NCBI GenBank assembly: GCA_004138175.2
Contig: RYFE02000012.1
Location: 62,001-126,000, forward strand
DNA length: 64,000 bases
From: Chloroflexales bacterium ZM16-3
GTDB lineage: Bacteria; Chloroflexota; Chloroflexia; Chloroflexales; Chloroflexaceae
Direction of reading: 5' to 3'
Part shown: positions 26,189 through 46,184 of the stretch, one piece after another
Layout: the number at the start of each line of letters is the position of its first letter
How positions within the stretch are numbered: position 1 is the stretch's first letter
Position numbers and translations under genes: made by a program
Notes under the pieces: generated by a model
The model's input: the letters and a program-made list of their open reading frames with translations, nothing else
The model's database searches: none
What the model was told of the DNA's origin: nothing

Positions 26189-26292
26189 GGTAGTGAATCA
26201 ATCTCGAATGTCACCCTGAGCGAAGCGAAGGGTCCCGAACGGGATTCCTCGCTTCGCTCAGGGTGACCACCATTCCCTATTGGGCCACTACC
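26189..26292. mobile_element. Family B miniature inverted-repeat element, copy B1
   Basis: 104 bp, ends GGTAGTG...CACTACC, flanked by the 8-bp duplication AGAAAAAC (26181-26188 and 26293-26300). The interior is the palindrome CCTGAGCGAAGCG...CGCTTCGCTCAGG. It lies in inverse orientation to the copies at 42663 and 57538. No ORF. The rest of the 384-base gap holds an octamer array and a possible promoter of the next gene. Confidence 0.9.
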
Positions 26293-39850: not shown

Positions 39851-39885
39851 AACGACCAGAGCCAGCTTTGCTGGCTCTGGTCGTT
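39851..39885. terminator. Perfect hairpin terminator (GCCAGC-TTT-GCTGGC tip)
   Basis: AACGACCAGAGCCAGC/GCTGGCTCTGGTCGTT, preceded by A6; ends transcription of the PHP gene on the minus strand. Confidence 0.85.
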
Positions 39886-39927: not shown

Positions 39928-42273
39928 TCACACCTCGTCGTAGAGCTCCAGCATCTCGTGCCACTCGCTGGTCAGCTCCTCGCGGCGGGCGGCGTAGTAG
40001 AAGTGCTGCTCGCCCTGCTCATCGACGAAGATCAGATCAACCTGGGAGCGCATCGGGCGCATGTAGCCGATGTTGCCCCACCAGCGCACCTTCTCCTCAT
40101 CGAGCGGCAGATCCTGCTGGAACATCCGCGCGGCGTACTCGCGCACCGTGCCCGGCTCGATATCCTGGAGGCGCCAGGGCACCCCGCTCACATCGCCAGT
40201 GCGCAGGTTGCGGAAGACATACTGCCACTCACCGTCCTCGCCCTGGGTTGCGCTTACCACCTCGATCCCGGTGCGTGGTCGGTTGACCCGGATCAGGTTC
40301 AGCCATGCCTCGGTCAGCTTCTCCAGGGAGACGCCCGGGTAGTCTTGCTGGCCGGGGCCATCCTTGTCCTTCATCACCAGGTCGAAGCGCGGGGTGCCCT
40401 GCTCGTCGCGGTAGGCGGCGGCCAGGCCGCCGCGCCCACGCCAGCGGATGCGCCGGTCGCCCCAGGTGGATGACTCGGGAGCGGTTGGCTCGGGCTGCTC
40501 CTCGGGGCTCGGCGGCGTCACCTCATCATCGCGATCAAAGTCCTGTGGCTCCTGCTCAACCGGGTCTCCGCTGCGCTCGCCCAGCAGCGACTCCCATGCT
40601 TCGCTGAGCCCCCAGTCGCTCACGCCGAAGAAGATGTGGTTGATCACCCCGTTGGCGTCGCGGTGGACAAGGTCGTACTTGGTGCGGCTGCCCTGGCGGT
40701 AGGCCCGCCACAGCCCCAGGCGGCCCTTCCACTTCACCTGGCTCTGCACGTCCACCCGGCCATCGCGTAGATCCTCGTAGCGGCTGATCGCGTAGGCCCA
40801 CAGACCCTGGGCGCGGTCCCGCGTGACCCCGGCGGTGGTGCGCAGGTCGCGCACCTCATAGAGCCAGACGCCGCCGCGCTTCTGGCCGGTGACGATCTCG
40901 ACCCCGGAGCGGGGCAGGTCGAGATCTTGGCCGTTATCGAGCGGCGACGAGGCGCCCTCGGCGAGGGCGCGACGGCAGAGCTGGATGATCTCGCCACGGT
41001 CGGCGATGACCGTCTCGCCATCGCGGCGGACATAGATCGTGCCATTGTTGCCCACGTAGGGCGGGGGCTCGCTCGACTTGACCTCGACGCGCATCACGTC
41101 CTGGCCCTCGTAGCTCATCAGCTCAAAGGAGAGGTAGGGCTGAGGGGTGATCTGCTCTGCCATGCCCTTGCGCAACACCTCGCTGACCTGGTCGGGGCGG
41201 GCGACGCCGGTGACCCGGCCGCCCGGCTCGCAGCCGATCACCAGCACGCCGCCGCCTGCGTTGGCCAGGGCGGCCACATCGCGCCAGAGATCGACGGCGC
41301 TCTGCGGGTCGTCGTCCATCGGGCGCAGCACCTGGCGCTCCGTAGATCCGCCGAAGCGCACCGCGTCCACCGCCCACTGCTTCTGGTCGCGCTTAGGCAC
41401 CCGCACGCGGTCGAAGTCCTGGCTGGCGAAGAGCGCCCGCAGCGACTCGAAGCTGTTGTCGGGCATGAGTAGCTCGACATAACGGTCGCCAATTCCGTGG
41501 CGATGGAGCACCTGCCCATCGGCGGCGGGGAGTCGGCGCAGGCGATGGGCGTCGCTGCCCTGGATGCAGAACATGCGTCGCTCGTAGTGCTCGACCTTAC
41601 CGTTATAGAAGCCGGGCGAGGTGAACTTCTCGTGGTCGGTGTAGAAGTTAATAAACTCTAGCGCGTGGAGGTGGGCGCTCTGGGTAGCGGCGATGCGGGA
41701 CTGGCCGCTGGTGCCCATGCGCAGGGTCTCGGTGATCACACCATTGGGGCCGTTCACATGGGGTGCGATCACGAGGCCGCCGGCGCGGGCGATCATCTCG
41801 TATGCCTCAGTGACGTGGCGAGTGTTGGTGACGCCGCAGATCCCGTCCTTCAGCTGGTCGGCGGAGACGCCAAGCTGGAGCAGGGTGGCCTCGATCAGGC
41901 TGAGCGGGCGGTTTGGCGCGAAGACACCTAGGATGTGGGCACCAAAGTGCGAGGTGAACTCAAAGCCGGGCAGGATGTTGATCTTCGTGAGGAGCCGACG
42001 GTATTCATCAAGCCGCACCTGCTCCTCGTCGGTGAGCCGGCCGCCCATCTCAAGGGTTTTAAGGAACTCGATCTCGCGCTGAAATCGATCATAGCCGTGG
42101 ACGGTGTTGTGATCGGTGAAAGCGATTATCTCTAGCTCGCGGCGCTCGGCCTCCTGAAGAATATCGAGGTAACTAACATTTGGCTCGGCGTAATCCTCAG
42201 ATGCGGGGGTGTGTAGGTGCAGGTCGGCCCGAATCCAACGCATGCCTGTGCGCGTCTCGGCGGGTGTGCTCAT
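39928..42273 (-). CDS. PHP + AlbA_2-like protein with duplicated C-terminal modules
   Basis: 781 residues. Residues 12-260 are a PHP phosphoesterase domain with its metal ligands: DLHLHT (H19, H21), TDHNT (D54, H55), PHVNG (H172) and GSDAH (D241, H243). Residues ~325-440 resemble a Schlafen AlbA_2 domain (ALANAGGGVLVIGCE, then NGTIYVRRDGE), though its leading acidic nuclease-like motif is not evident. Beyond 455 there are two copies of one module (456-503, 668-716, GVEIV...YEVRDLRT / GIEVV...YVFRNLRT) and three of another (511-564, 607-661, 728-775, W-x-G-x-x-G ... DLV..D..G ... L(S/T)(E)xW). I do not know the modules. PHP domains hydrolyse phosphoesters, so a nucleic acid or nucleotide substrate is likely. 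It faces a recombinase gene across 654 bases of repeats. Confidence 0.85.
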   Translation of the reverse strand: MSTPAETRTGMRWIRADLHLHTPASEDYAEPNVSYLDILQEAERRELEIIAFTDHNTVHGYDRFQREIEFLKTLEMGGRLTDEEQVRLDEYRRLLTKINILPGFEFTSHFGAHILGVFAPNRPLSLIEATLLQLGVSADQLKDGICGVTNTRHVTEAYEMIARAGGLVIAPHVNGPNGVITETLRMGTSGQSRIAATQSAHLHALEFINFYTDHEKFTSPGFYNGKVEHYERRMFCIQGSDAHRLRRLPAADGQVLHRHGIGDRYVELLMPDNSFESLRALFASQDFDRVRVPKRDQKQWAVDAVRFGGSTERQVLRPMDDDPQSAVDLWRDVAALANAGGGVLVIGCEPGGRVTGVARPDQVSEVLRKGMAEQITPQPYLSFELMSYEGQDVMRVEVKSSEPPPYVGNNGTIYVRRDGETVIADRGEIIQLCRRALAEGASSPLDNGQDLDLPRSGVEIVTGQKRGGVWLYEVRDLRTTAGVTRDRAQGLWAYAISRYEDLRDGRVDVQSQVKWKGRLGLWRAYRQGSRTKYDLVHRDANGVINHIFFGVSDWGLSEAWESLLGERSGDPVEQEPQDFDRDDEVTPPSPEEQPEPTAPESSTWGDRRIRWRGRGGLAAAYRDEQGTPRFDLVMKDKDGPGQQDYPGVSLEKLTEAWLNLIRVNRPRTGIEVVSATQGEDGEWQYVFRNLRTGDVSGVPWRLQDIEPGTVREYAARMFQQDLPLDEEKVRWWGNIGYMRPMRSQVDLIFVDEQGEQHFYYAARREELTSEWHEMLELYDEV

Positions 42274-42662: not shown

Positions 42663-42766
42663 AGTAGTGGCCCAATGTGGAATGGTCGTCATTCCGAGCG
42701 AAGCGAGGAATCCCGGTCGGGACCCTTCGCTTCGCTCAGGGTGACATTCGAGATAGATCCACTACC
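42663..42766. mobile_element. Family B miniature inverted-repeat element, copy B2
   Basis: 104 bp, ends (A)GTAGTGG...CCACTACC, flanked by the 8-bp duplication CAGTCGCC (42655-42662 and 42767-42774). Inserted in the right arm of the hairpin cluster. Confidence 0.92.
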
Positions 42767-42927: not shown

Positions 42928-43866
42928 ATGGCAACCAACGGCGATCCTGCATCGTCTCGCCTGCACACAATCGCCAGCGAGATGGAGTCATTTCTGAGCG
43001 ATATTCAGCTAGAGCAAGGGCTGAGCAGCAATACGATCACGTCATATCGATGCGACTTACGCATGGTCGCCGGGGCGGTAGATAAGCCGCTTGAGGCGAT
43101 TAGCACGCTAGACATCCAGGAGTTTCTCGACAGCCGCAATGAGCAGCCTGGCACGAAGAACCGCCGTATCGCCAGCCTTGGGCGGTTCTTTCGCTGGGCG
43201 GTGGCCCGCAGCTACTGCCTCTATAACCCGCTCGATCAGATCGGCGGGCGCTACCATTCTGAGCATCGGCCCCGCCCAATTGTTAGCGAGTCGGAGCGCC
43301 GGGCGCTCGATGCGGCGATCATCGCGAGCCCGCAGCCCTACCGCCTGATCTTCACCCTGCTGCGTGAGATCGGCGTGCGCACCGACGAGGTGCTCAACCT
43401 GGATGTCGGCGATGTCCTTCTGGAGCCTGGCCGCGAGGTGCTGCTTGTGCAGGACAGTAAGGGCGGCAGCAAGCGGATGGTCGCGCTCACCTCAGACGCG
43501 ATGCCGCGCAGCCTGCGCGGCCTGCGCAGCTGGATGCGCGACCTTGGCGCGGATGTGTCGCTTGACTCGCCGCTCTTCTGCTCCTCGCGCGGGAACCGCG
43601 CCTCCTACGACACGCTCCACCGACGCTGGGTGCAGGTCTGTAAGGCCGCCCACCTGATCGATATGGTTGATGGCAGGGAGCAGCCGCGCTATACGCTGCA
43701 TCACCTGCGCCACACGGCGGCGGCCGAGCTGATCGCCTGCTACCCTGAGCAGGTTGTTCGTCGCATCCTTGGCCACCGCGACCCGCGCTCTACCCGGCGC
43801 TACGCTGAGATTATGCGTAAGGGTGCCCTCCCTGCGCAGCGCCGTGAGCAGCAGGTTTCGTCTTAA
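42928..43866 (+). CDS. Tyrosine recombinase, XerC/XerD-like
   Basis: 312 residues after GAGGAGGG. N-terminal SAM-like core-binding domain (about 15-105) and catalytic domain with all residues: R151 (GVRTDE), K178 (SKGG), H258 and R261 (HHLRH), H283 (LGHRD), nucleophile Y292 (RRYAE). It could be a chromosomal dimer-resolution XerC/D or an element integrase; no attachment sites, coupled excisionase or dif-like site was found. Followed by a strong terminator. Confidence 0.92.
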   Translation: MATNGDPASSRLHTIASEMESFLSDIQLEQGLSSNTITSYRCDLRMVAGAVDKPLEAISTLDIQEFLDSRNEQPGTKNRRIASLGRFFRWAVARSYCLYNPLDQIGGRYHSEHRPRPIVSESERRALDAAIIASPQPYRLIFTLLREIGVRTDEVLNLDVGDVLLEPGREVLLVQDSKGGSKRMVALTSDAMPRSLRGLRSWMRDLGADVSLDSPLFCSSRGNRASYDTLHRRWVQVCKAAHLIDMVDGREQPRYTLHHLRHTAAAELIACYPEQVVRRILGHRDPRSTRRYAEIMRKGALPAQRREQQVSS

Positions 43867-43869
43867 AGC

Positions 43870-43906
43870 AGCGCGGTAAGAGAGGGGAACCCTCTCTTAC
43901 CGCGCT
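43870..43906. terminator. Terminator between convergent recombinase and hydrolase genes
   Basis: AGCGCGGTAAGAGAGGG/CCCTCTCTTACCGCGCT; its right arm overlaps the 3' coding end of the hydrolase gene. Confidence 0.82.
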
Positions 43907-44721
43907 CGCTTGAGCCAGCCTGTCAGCGCCTCCATCGTTGGCACGTACCCCGGCCCGCGCAGCATGTTGTGGGTTGTCCCTGGGATGATCTGCATTGCGC
44001 CGAGGCCGGGGCGCAGCTTCGCCTTGACCTCGCCCAGCCGATCCGGCGGGATGACGGTGTACTCCAGGTCGGCCACCAGCAGCAGCAGAGGCGCGGACAC
44101 CTCGCCGAGCCGATCTTCTAGGCTCCAGTTGCCGCCTCCGGTGAAGAACCCCTCCACCTGCTCGGCGCGGCACTGTTCCAGGGCCGCGATCTTCCAGAAG
44201 ATATCGCACTCGGCCCAGGTCGGGTTATTGGTTCGTAGGCGCGTCTCGTTGAAGGCGGCGCTCTCCCCTACGCCCTCCAGGTAGTTGGGCATTGCCTCGC
44301 GCCCGTCCTCGGGGTTAATGCTCAGGGCGGGGTCCACCAGCGCCACGCGTGCGATGGCGGCGCGGGCTGGGTGATCGCCGCTGGCCAGCGCCAGGGCGGT
44401 GGCCCCGCCCCAGGAGTGGCCGATCAGCGTCACCCCGCGCAGCTCGCGGGCTATGATCAGCGCGCCGGCGAGATCGGCGATGCTGTCCATATCGTGGGCT
44501 GTGCTCATGTCACTCTCGCCGTGGCCGGGCATGTCTAGGGCGAAGACGTGGTGGCCCAGGGCGGCCAGGGCTGGGGCCACCCGCCATAAGGTGGCCGCGC
44601 TGCTGGTGATCCCGTGCAGCAGCACGACCGGCGTCCCAGCGCCGTCCCACTCCAGGTAGCTCAGCCGTGTCGGCCCGGCCTGGAGGTAGCTTCGCGTCGC
44701 GTGGATCTCACAGGGCGTCAT
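43897..44721 (-). CDS. Alpha/beta hydrolase
   Basis: 274 residues: oxyanion LLHGITSSA, nucleophile elbow GHSWGG near 103, Asp in LVADLEYTV region and His in IIPGTTHNM. Broad esterase/lipase or haloperoxidase-like family. ATGA overlap with the upstream S10 peptidase gene shows an operon. Confidence 0.9.
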   Translation of the reverse strand: MTPCEIHATRSYLQAGPTRLSYLEWDGAGTPVVLLHGITSSAATLWRVAPALAALGHHVFALDMPGHGESDMSTAHDMDSIADLAGALIIARELRGVTLIGHSWGGATALALASGDHPARAAIARVALVDPALSINPEDGREAMPNYLEGVGESAAFNETRLRTNNPTWAECDIFWKIAALEQCRAEQVEGFFTGGGNWSLEDRLGEVSAPLLLLVADLEYTVIPPDRLGEVKAKLRPGLGAMQIIPGTTHNMLRGPGYVPTMEALTGWLKRAR

Positions 44722-46184
44722 AGTGCTCCTCGGATAAAGCGTGCCAGTTCGTCGCGCAGGTGGGCCAGCGACGGCCCGTGGACATACATCATGTGGCCTG
44801 CCTGGTAGTAGCTTAGGCCAATGTTCGGGCGCAGGCTCGGGTCGAGCTGCATGTGGCTGAGGGTGTACGCGGTGGCGAAGTAGGGCGTCGCCAGGTCGTA
44901 GTAGCCGTTGGCGATGTGGATTCTCAGGGCGGGGTTCTCGCTGATCGCCTTGCGGAGGGTCTCGGCCACGTCCACATACTTGTTCTCGTGCTGGGCGTAG
45001 CTCCAGGGGTGGACGCGCCCGGAGATAATCTCGTAGGGCAGGTCGCTGGCGTAGCCGAGCTCGCTGCGCACATAAGCGTTGAGCGCGGCGCTGTACGGCC
45101 CGAGGATCGCGCTGTAGCTCGGGTCGTGATCGGCCCGCTCGCCCACCCGGTCGCGGTCGATCCCGAGGAAGCGGCTATCGAGCCGACCAACCGTGCGGCC
45201 CTGCTCGCGCAGCAGCTCCTTCACAAAGCGGTCATCGCGGATACGCAGGTTGCAGCCCAGCACATAGCCCTGGCTCAGGCCGGTGTAGCGGGCCAGGCGC
45301 GCGGCGACCTCGGCGCGCGCGGTGTCGCCCAGCGTGTCGCCGCGCAGCAGGGCCAGGGCGTAGTCGCCCAGGGCGAATGCCTCGACCTCGGCCAGGGTGG
45401 CCTTGAGATCGGCCTGAAGATCATCAGGAAGCCGCTTATGGTAGAAGGCCGTGGCCGCGTAGCTGGGCAGAAACAGGATGTAGGGCAGGTCGTTGCCAGG
45501 GTCGAACTCCAGGGTCTGGAAGTTCAGCACCGCTGAGACGAGCATGATCCCGTTGAGGAAGAGCCCGTGGCGATCCTGGAGGTAGCCGGCCAGGCCGCCG
45601 GCGCGGGTGGTGCCGTAGCTCTCGCCGATCAGGAACTTGGGCGACATCCAGCGCCCGTAGCGGGTGGCATAGAGCCGGATGAAGTCGCCGACCGTCTCGA
45701 TGTCCTTCTTGAATCCGTGGAAGGGCTTGGCCGCCTCGCCCGGCACCGCCCGGCTGAACCCGGTGCTCACCGGGTCGATGAAGACCAGGTCGCTATGAGC
45801 GAGCAGGGTGTGGTCGTTGTCGGCCAGGCGGTAGGGCGGCGGCGCAAGGGTGCCGACATCGCCCATCTCGACTTTGCGCGGCCCCAGCAGGCCCATGTGT
45901 AGCCAGACCGACGAGGAGCCGGGGCCGCCGTTGAACGAGAAGGTGATCGGTCGGGTATCCGCCCGCTCGCCGTCGCGGGTGTAGGCCACAAAGAAGATCA
46001 TCGCCTTCGGCTTCTCGCCCTCGGAGGTGCCCTCGTCGGCCTTCTCGGCCTCCTCGCGAATCACCAGTGTCCCTGTGGTGACGGTGTAGCTCAGGGCCTC
46101 GCCGCCGATAACGATCTGGTGGTGCGTCTGCACCAGGCGGTCTTCGAGCAGGGACGGAGTTGGCGTGGAGCCTTGCTCGGACAT
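44718..46184 (-). CDS. S10-family serine carboxypeptidase
   Basis: 488 residues with the S10 hallmarks: NGGPGSSS near 86, GESYGT (nucleophile Ser), DLATPY (Asp) and QAGHMMY (His). No signal peptide is visible, so the bacterial S10 may act in the cytoplasm, unlike eukaryotic homologues. First gene of a two-gene operon with the alpha/beta hydrolase. Confidence 0.93.
   Translation of the reverse strand: MSEQGSTPTPSLLEDRLVQTHHQIVIGGEALSYTVTTGTLVIREEAEKADEGTSEGEKPKAMIFFVAYTRDGERADTRPITFSFNGGPGSSSVWLHMGLLGPRKVEMGDVGTLAPPPYRLADNDHTLLAHSDLVFIDPVSTGFSRAVPGEAAKPFHGFKKDIETVGDFIRLYATRYGRWMSPKFLIGESYGTTRAGGLAGYLQDRHGLFLNGIMLVSAVLNFQTLEFDPGNDLPYILFLPSYAATAFYHKRLPDDLQADLKATLAEVEAFALGDYALALLRGDTLGDTARAEVAARLARYTGLSQGYVLGCNLRIRDDRFVKELLREQGRTVGRLDSRFLGIDRDRVGERADHDPSYSAILGPYSAALNAYVRSELGYASDLPYEIISGRVHPWSYAQHENKYVDVAETLRKAISENPALRIHIANGYYDLATPYFATAYTLSHMQLDPSLRPNIGLSYYQAGHMMYVHGPSLAHLRDELARFIRGAL

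Follow-up and report, generated by a model that had tools for sequence, protein, structure and literature searches.

An undescribed PHP-AlbA_2 protein with repeated C-terminal modules is a core protein of the Chloroflexales

Results

Organization of the locus and of the encoded protein

The window analyzed here is a stretch of 64,000 nucleotides from Chloroflexales bacterium ZM16-3 (contig RYFE02000012.1). Its minus strand carries a complete gene (39928-42273; ATG start, 781 codons, stop codon at 39928-39930) encoding a protein of 781 amino acids, with which the orthologues align over the full length. These are exactly the coordinates that an earlier note had given from the nucleotide sequence. 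The same note described the gene as isolated by terminators and repeats and considered the adjoining tyrosine recombinase to be in keeping with an accessory system. The isolation was confirmed: the gene stands by itself in the window and in its relatives, surrounded by ordinary genes (a recombinase, a hydrolase, PDH subunits, ArgS, UbiE, and others), a perfect, terminator-like 16-bp inverted repeat lies just 3' of it (39851-39885), and an interspersed repeat is located upstream. The part concerning the recombinase did not hold. The recombinase gene (Phage_integrase family; 42928-43866, plus strand), which is divergently oriented at a distance of 655 bp and lies outside the function proposed below, has syntenic counterparts, 71-85% identical, in Oscillochloris and Chloroflexus. 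It is therefore a vertically conserved resident of the region and gives no sign of a mobile element.

Domain boundaries were derived from AlphaFold models and from an alignment in which 51 sequences, namely those of the window protein and of relatives with the full architecture, were combined with 12 distant homologues. The protein starts with a PHP phosphoesterase domain (residues 12-296; 41386-42240), followed by a SLFN_AlbA_2 domain (residues 297-441; 40951-41385). The C-terminal part consists of five modules of two types, X and Y, recognized both by hidden Markov models (HMMs) and in the structural models: X1 (residues 455-511; 40741-40911) and Y1 (residues 512-566; 40576-40740) are separated by an acidic linker modeled with low confidence (residues 567-604; 40462-40575) from Y2 (residues 605-661; 40291-40461), X2 (residues 666-726; 40096-40278) and Y3 (residues 727-777; 39943-40095), all encoded on the minus strand. 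The earlier note did not recognize this architecture, and we likewise found it neither in the domain libraries nor in the literature searched, where nothing on a PHP-AlbA_2-XY arrangement was retrieved. No PHROG was found for the window protein, and no chain in the PDB matches the whole protein by sequence. The protein is thus real and undescribed; in it, a metal-dependent phosphoesterase domain is combined with a Schlafen-type domain and new small repeated modules. Both N-terminal domains are already known; what is new, with respect to the libraries and papers searched, is their combination and the X-Y modules.

A complete metal site in the PHP domain

The complete PHP metal site predicted in the earlier note was found at all ligand positions. 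The HxH, DH, E, H, H and DxH elements that place the protein in the PHP superfamily correspond to D17-x-H19-x-H21, D54-H55, E105, H113, H172 and D241-A-H243 (within a GSDAH motif), and these residues are kept in all intact homologues. The Pfam PHP profile (PF02811) matches residues 17-106 with an E-value of 1.6e-5, slightly under the Pfam cut-off. By sequence profile, the nearest PHP domains are those of TrlF and Ppl (NF045780 and NF042955; PADLOC Ppl): the NCBIfam TrlF profile matches residues 10-297 (7e-27, 94.5 bits) and the Ppl profile residues 10-247 (5e-19, 67.7 bits). The match is confined to the PHP part, with scores far under the family cut-offs of 350 and 1000, respectively. The AAA-like ATPase half that defines these families was not detected in the Pfam scan, and the window protein carries the AlbA_2 domain and X-Y modules instead. 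By sequence, the PHP domain is distantly related to the TrlF/Ppl PHP-ATPases without the protein belonging to either family.

The predicted PHP fold was superimposed best on endonuclease Q (EndoQ; 5zb8, 7k30), with a Z-score of 19.1 and an rmsd of 3.3 over 226 residues, followed by TM0559 (Z 16.2), RNase AM/YciV (7ug9, 9etk; Z 13.6), the AMP/phosphate-bound amidohydrolase 2yb1 (Z 12.2) and histidinol phosphate phosphatase 2yxo (Z 6.9). The ligands of the three-metal site of RNase AM are His13, Asp20, His45, Glu72, His83, His198, Asp255, and His257 (PMC9410882), and those of EndoQ are D6, H8, H10, E76, H84, H139, D192, and H194 (PMC4357722). Positions equivalent to both sets are present in the PHP domain of the window protein, as mapped by motif and order and not by residue-level superposition. 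RNase AM shares the PHP fold and the equivalent His/Glu/Asp ligands but combines its PHP domain with an insertion domain and has neither an AlbA_2 domain nor the modules.

The likeness to EndoQ raises the question whether the protein is a DNA-repair endonuclease that incises damaged DNA and whose AlbA_2 domain and modules would bind DNA or chromatin. In addition to being the best structural match, EndoQ shares the SDAH motif and the spacing of its E76 and H84 (PMC4357722), which equals the eight residues between E105 and H113 of the window protein (E-x7-H). EndoQ, however, has a C-terminal four-cysteine zinc motif and other partner domains. The window protein lacks the zinc motif, its four cysteines (146, 236, 348, and 433) being scattered without CxxC pairs, which sets it apart from EndoQ, and the operon partners of its distant relatives (see below) are proteostasis genes and not repair genes. 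We give this repair function a small probability.

An AlbA_2 domain without the Schlafen RNase triad

The AlbA_2-like domain proposed in the earlier note is supported by both profile and fold. The SLFN_AlbA_2 profile (PF04326) matches residues 325-422 with an E-value of 6e-16 and 59.4 bits, well above the cut-off of 25.3, and the predicted fold resembles DIP2311 (Z 12.6), a RecG-like N-terminal domain (Z 11.3), SAMD9 (7ksp; Z 10.6), and SLFN13 (5yd0; Z 10.1). The tRNA-cleaving RNases of the Schlafen/SAMD9 group require a conserved E/E/D active-site triad (PMC11221667). The window protein has the same domain by Pfam and fold, but lacks this feature: the E..E of the first strand is replaced and the third position is unconserved, which sets it apart from these RNases. 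The first strand reads GSTERQVLR, compared to a GESEVVEFK-type sequence in L139, another AlbA_2 protein encoded in this genome, which retains the first two triad positions. Since the first-strand glutamates are missing, the AlbA_2 domain of the window protein is, judged by its sequence, probably non-catalytic.

The presence of this domain also bears on the type of substrate. The PHP domain could belong to a small-molecule phosphoesterase that resembles CV1693 or the YcdX/histidinol-phosphatase group, hydrolyzes nucleotides or second messengers and has a C-terminus with a sensory role, and the fold matches to 2yb1 and 2yxo agree with this. The matches to nucleases are stronger than those to the small-molecule members, however, and the fusion to a Schlafen-type domain for nucleic-acid binding suggests a polymeric substrate, which leaves the small-molecule function with a slight chance in our estimation.

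The X and Y modules are candidate new domain families

The HMMs for the modules were trained on the single X-Y unit of distant homologues from outside the Chloroflexales and then run on the window protein. The Y model matched three times (residues 512-565, 1e-19; 608-661, 5e-8; 728-776, 1e-5) and the X model twice (455-501, 1e-13; 667-695, 8e-5), and a profile of the whole XY unit matched X2-Y3 at 4e-10. As the models originate from distant homologues, these matches indicate that the repetition represents real homology, and the five modules in the order X-Y/Y-X-Y described in the earlier note could be assigned as X1-Y1/Y2-X2-Y3. In the model of the C-terminal part, pLDDT values are mostly 75-97, and X is predicted to fold as b-b-b-a and Y as b-b-b-b-a. 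In the window protein, the basic modules are X1 (slightly), Y1 and Y2, and the acidic ones X2 and Y3; X2 is acidic in every enlarged copy examined.

As the earlier note supposed, the modules have no known counterpart in the databases searched: no match was found in Pfam, no credible match by sequence in the PDB, and the fold comparisons were unconvincing. Foldseek searches with the C-terminal modules never gave an E-value better than 0.008; a missing fold match of this kind should not be taken to mean that the fold is new. With the modules compared jointly, the best fold match was to the chromodomains of cpSRP43 (5e4w; Foldseek probability 0.57, Z 3.7), and the Tudor domain of SETDB1 gave a Z-score of 2.3. 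Chromo and Tudor domains are SH3-like barrels with a C-terminal helix and an aromatic cage; the structural likeness of the modeled modules to them (Z 2-3.7) falls far short of convincing and sequence similarity was not found, so that it may serve as a weak lead and not as an assignment. We consider X and Y to be candidates for two new domain families.

The gene is core and vertically inherited in the Chloroflexales

Within the Chloroflexales, an order of filamentous green bacteria, the gene was found in 59 of 61 genomes, with one strong locus in each. The 45 high-quality genomes all carry it, each with one copy of full length. Identity declines with kinship, from 88-94% within a genus to 57-72% between families in the intact lineages. 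The gene is core in the Chloroflexales and vertically inherited. Outside the order its occurrence is sporadic (13 genomes in a sample of 301 and 22 in a sample of 400), and the homologues that were read are shorter, with a PHP-AlbA_2-X-Y organization from which the second module block is absent. In the 301-genome sample of the phylum, the XY profile detected the modules in no other protein, its matches being confined to the 42 genomes that contain the full protein. A scan of the genomes of 84,980 species with exact peptide patterns taken from the window protein returned 54 loci, all apparently from Chloroflexota.

In four genera with an intact PHP domain, dN/dS values were 0.018-0.047 for the PHP domain, 0.06-0.13 for AlbA_2, 0.009-0.037 for X1-Y1, and 0.018-0.086 for Y2-X2-Y3. 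The gene is under strong purifying selection in the Chloroflexales, and X1-Y1 is the most constrained region of the protein in most lineages. An entire bacterial order thus retains a large protein under strong selection to which no function has been assigned and whose modules are missing from Pfam.

These data bear directly on the accessory or anti-phage role suggested in the earlier note. Judged from sequence context, neither the patchy spread nor the mobile or defense-island context of an accessory anti-phage gene was found, and distribution, synteny and selection together led us to reject an accessory or mobile origin. The earlier note had named a conserved housekeeping context of the homologues as evidence against its suggestion, and this is largely what was observed, the gene being core in the Chloroflexales and often part of an Hsp20-Lon operon elsewhere. 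A narrower version, in which the protein is a TrlF/Ppl-related anti-phage effector that has been domesticated in the Chloroflexales, agrees with the nearest profiles of the PHP region and with the occurrence of Schlafen-type domains in antiviral proteins (PMC11221667). Against it stand the absence of both the ATPase half and the Schlafen RNase triad and the core, vertical inheritance of the gene. Among the neighbors in the window there is no clear defense gene, the single PADLOC match falling within a histidine kinase, in its ATPase region. The phage collection contained no match to the window protein, the viral contigs no homologue and no XY module, and no plasmid match covered 80% of the protein; the plasmid matches listed were to TrlF-type genes and extended over their PHP part alone. 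We regard a domesticated effector as very unlikely.

Distant relatives are often linked to Hsp20 and Lon genes

Outside the Chloroflexales, a different gene neighborhood was observed. In 11 of the 21 loci, representing nine families, a Lon gene confirmed by Pfam lies upstream on the same strand, in most of them directly adjacent or with one receiver-domain gene in between. Hsp20 usually precedes Lon in these loci and the gaps are mostly short or overlapping. With Lon directly upstream the gap is often short, measuring about 58-118 nt in L100, L095 and L096, and the genes overlap in L104; with an intervening receiver gene, the PHP gene begins 27-56 nt after it (L094, L098, L105). In one locus with the order Hsp20-Lon-REC-PHP (L144), Lon is split over two frames (L144:5813-8168) by a frameshift or an assembly error, and another ORF intervenes. 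No gene families recur among the neighbors of these loci more often than Lon and Hsp20. In three others of the 21 loci (L101, L150, L152; one genus or its neighbors) DnaK is located nearby, downstream on the same strand in L150 and L152. About half of the non-Chloroflexales loci have no Lon link. The co-directional adjacency seen in the 11 loci does not extend to the Chloroflexales, including the window, where no Lon, Hsp20 or DnaK gene was present in the flanks examined. The window's own genome has Lon genes located elsewhere, with no Hsp20 within 1.5 kb of them. A search of the window and the operons for CIRCE-type heat-shock elements returned none.

Loss of the PHP metal site in a Roseiflexaceae clade

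A clade of Roseiflexaceae MAGs (L086-L090 and L092) has lost most PHP ligands and has highly conserved modules; in L091, the PHP site is partly degraded. The PHP domain of the clade is 28-29% identical to that of the window protein and still constrained (dN/dS 0.07), compared to identities of 64-68% for X1-Y1 and 56-58% for Y2-X2-Y3 and a dN/dS of 0.010 for X1-Y1. A second, intact copy was looked for in the genome behind L038 and L089 (G039) and none was seen. The loss of the metal site with retention of the modules argues for a role of the modules that is independent of PHP catalysis, and the continued selection on the protein indicates that catalysis is not always essential. The clade thus represents a natural separation-of-function experiment.

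These observations make a purely structural adaptor the strongest rival to a catalytic function. In such an adaptor or scaffold, the X-Y modules, together with AlbA_2, would be the working part that reads nucleic acid, the ribosome or a protein partner for quality control by Lon and Hsp20, and the PHP domain would be regulatory or nucleotide-sensing. The adjacency to Lon and the superior conservation of the modules in most lineages, the dead-site clade included, are in line with this role. In nearly all other lineages, however, the PHP ligands are intact and the PHP dN/dS is 0.02-0.05, from which it follows that catalysis is normally selected for. We consider an adaptor unlikely, while taking it seriously.

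The public label of one member of the clade deserves mention: L089 (contig CAMCVW010000007.1) is titled Thermoflexus hugenholtzii JAD2, and because its gene and neighbors group with the Roseiflexaceae, this label looks wrong.

A possible housekeeping role in protein damage

The reading that we favor, tentatively and at somewhat less than an even chance, is that of a stress- or proteostasis-linked housekeeping PHP phosphoesterase of the Chloroflexota which is targeted by its AlbA_2 domain and X/Y modules. The phosphoesterase is probably a nuclease. By analogy with RNase AM and EndoQ, the PHP domain would act on nucleic acid as a metal-dependent phosphoesterase, trimming RNA or DNA ends or making incisions. 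The AlbA_2 domain may provide a non-catalytic platform for nucleic-acid binding or oligomerization, and the X-Y modules, with basic X1, Y1 and Y2 and acidic X2, may direct the enzyme to nucleic acid or to a protein partner. Being presumably expressed with Hsp20 and Lon, the protein may be needed when proteins are damaged, and could clear or process nucleic acid tied to protein damage or stalled translation. In the Chloroflexales, the module set would have grown to X-Y-Y-X-Y and the gene would have left the Hsp20-Lon operon. With respect to the substrate, the fold favors EndoQ, and the biology of Lon and Hsp20 favors RNA or translation. The operon link in the distant relatives offers a concrete hypothesis in which protein quality control is joined to nucleic-acid processing. 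A more far-reaching proposal, which we find rather doubtful, is that X and Y are new families reading a nucleic-acid or ribosomal partner, and that Hsp20, Lon, the receiver protein and PHP/AlbA_2-XY form an undescribed system coupling protein quality control to nucleic-acid processing, which in one lineage has become a catalytically dead adaptor.

Other features of the window

The interspersed repeat of the CATTCTGAGCGAAGCGAAGAATC type occurs in six copies (window positions 26243, 27290, 33637, 42690, 46319, and 57565; 0 expected by chance), and the copy at 42690 forms, with its neighbor, a 28-bp inverted repeat in the gap upstream of the gene. A perfect 17-bp inverted repeat at 43870-43906, where the recombinase gene and an alpha/beta hydrolase gene converge, is probably a bidirectional terminator. 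At 44721-46184, the window contains a gene for a bacterial serine carboxypeptidase (Peptidase_S10) of 488 amino acids.
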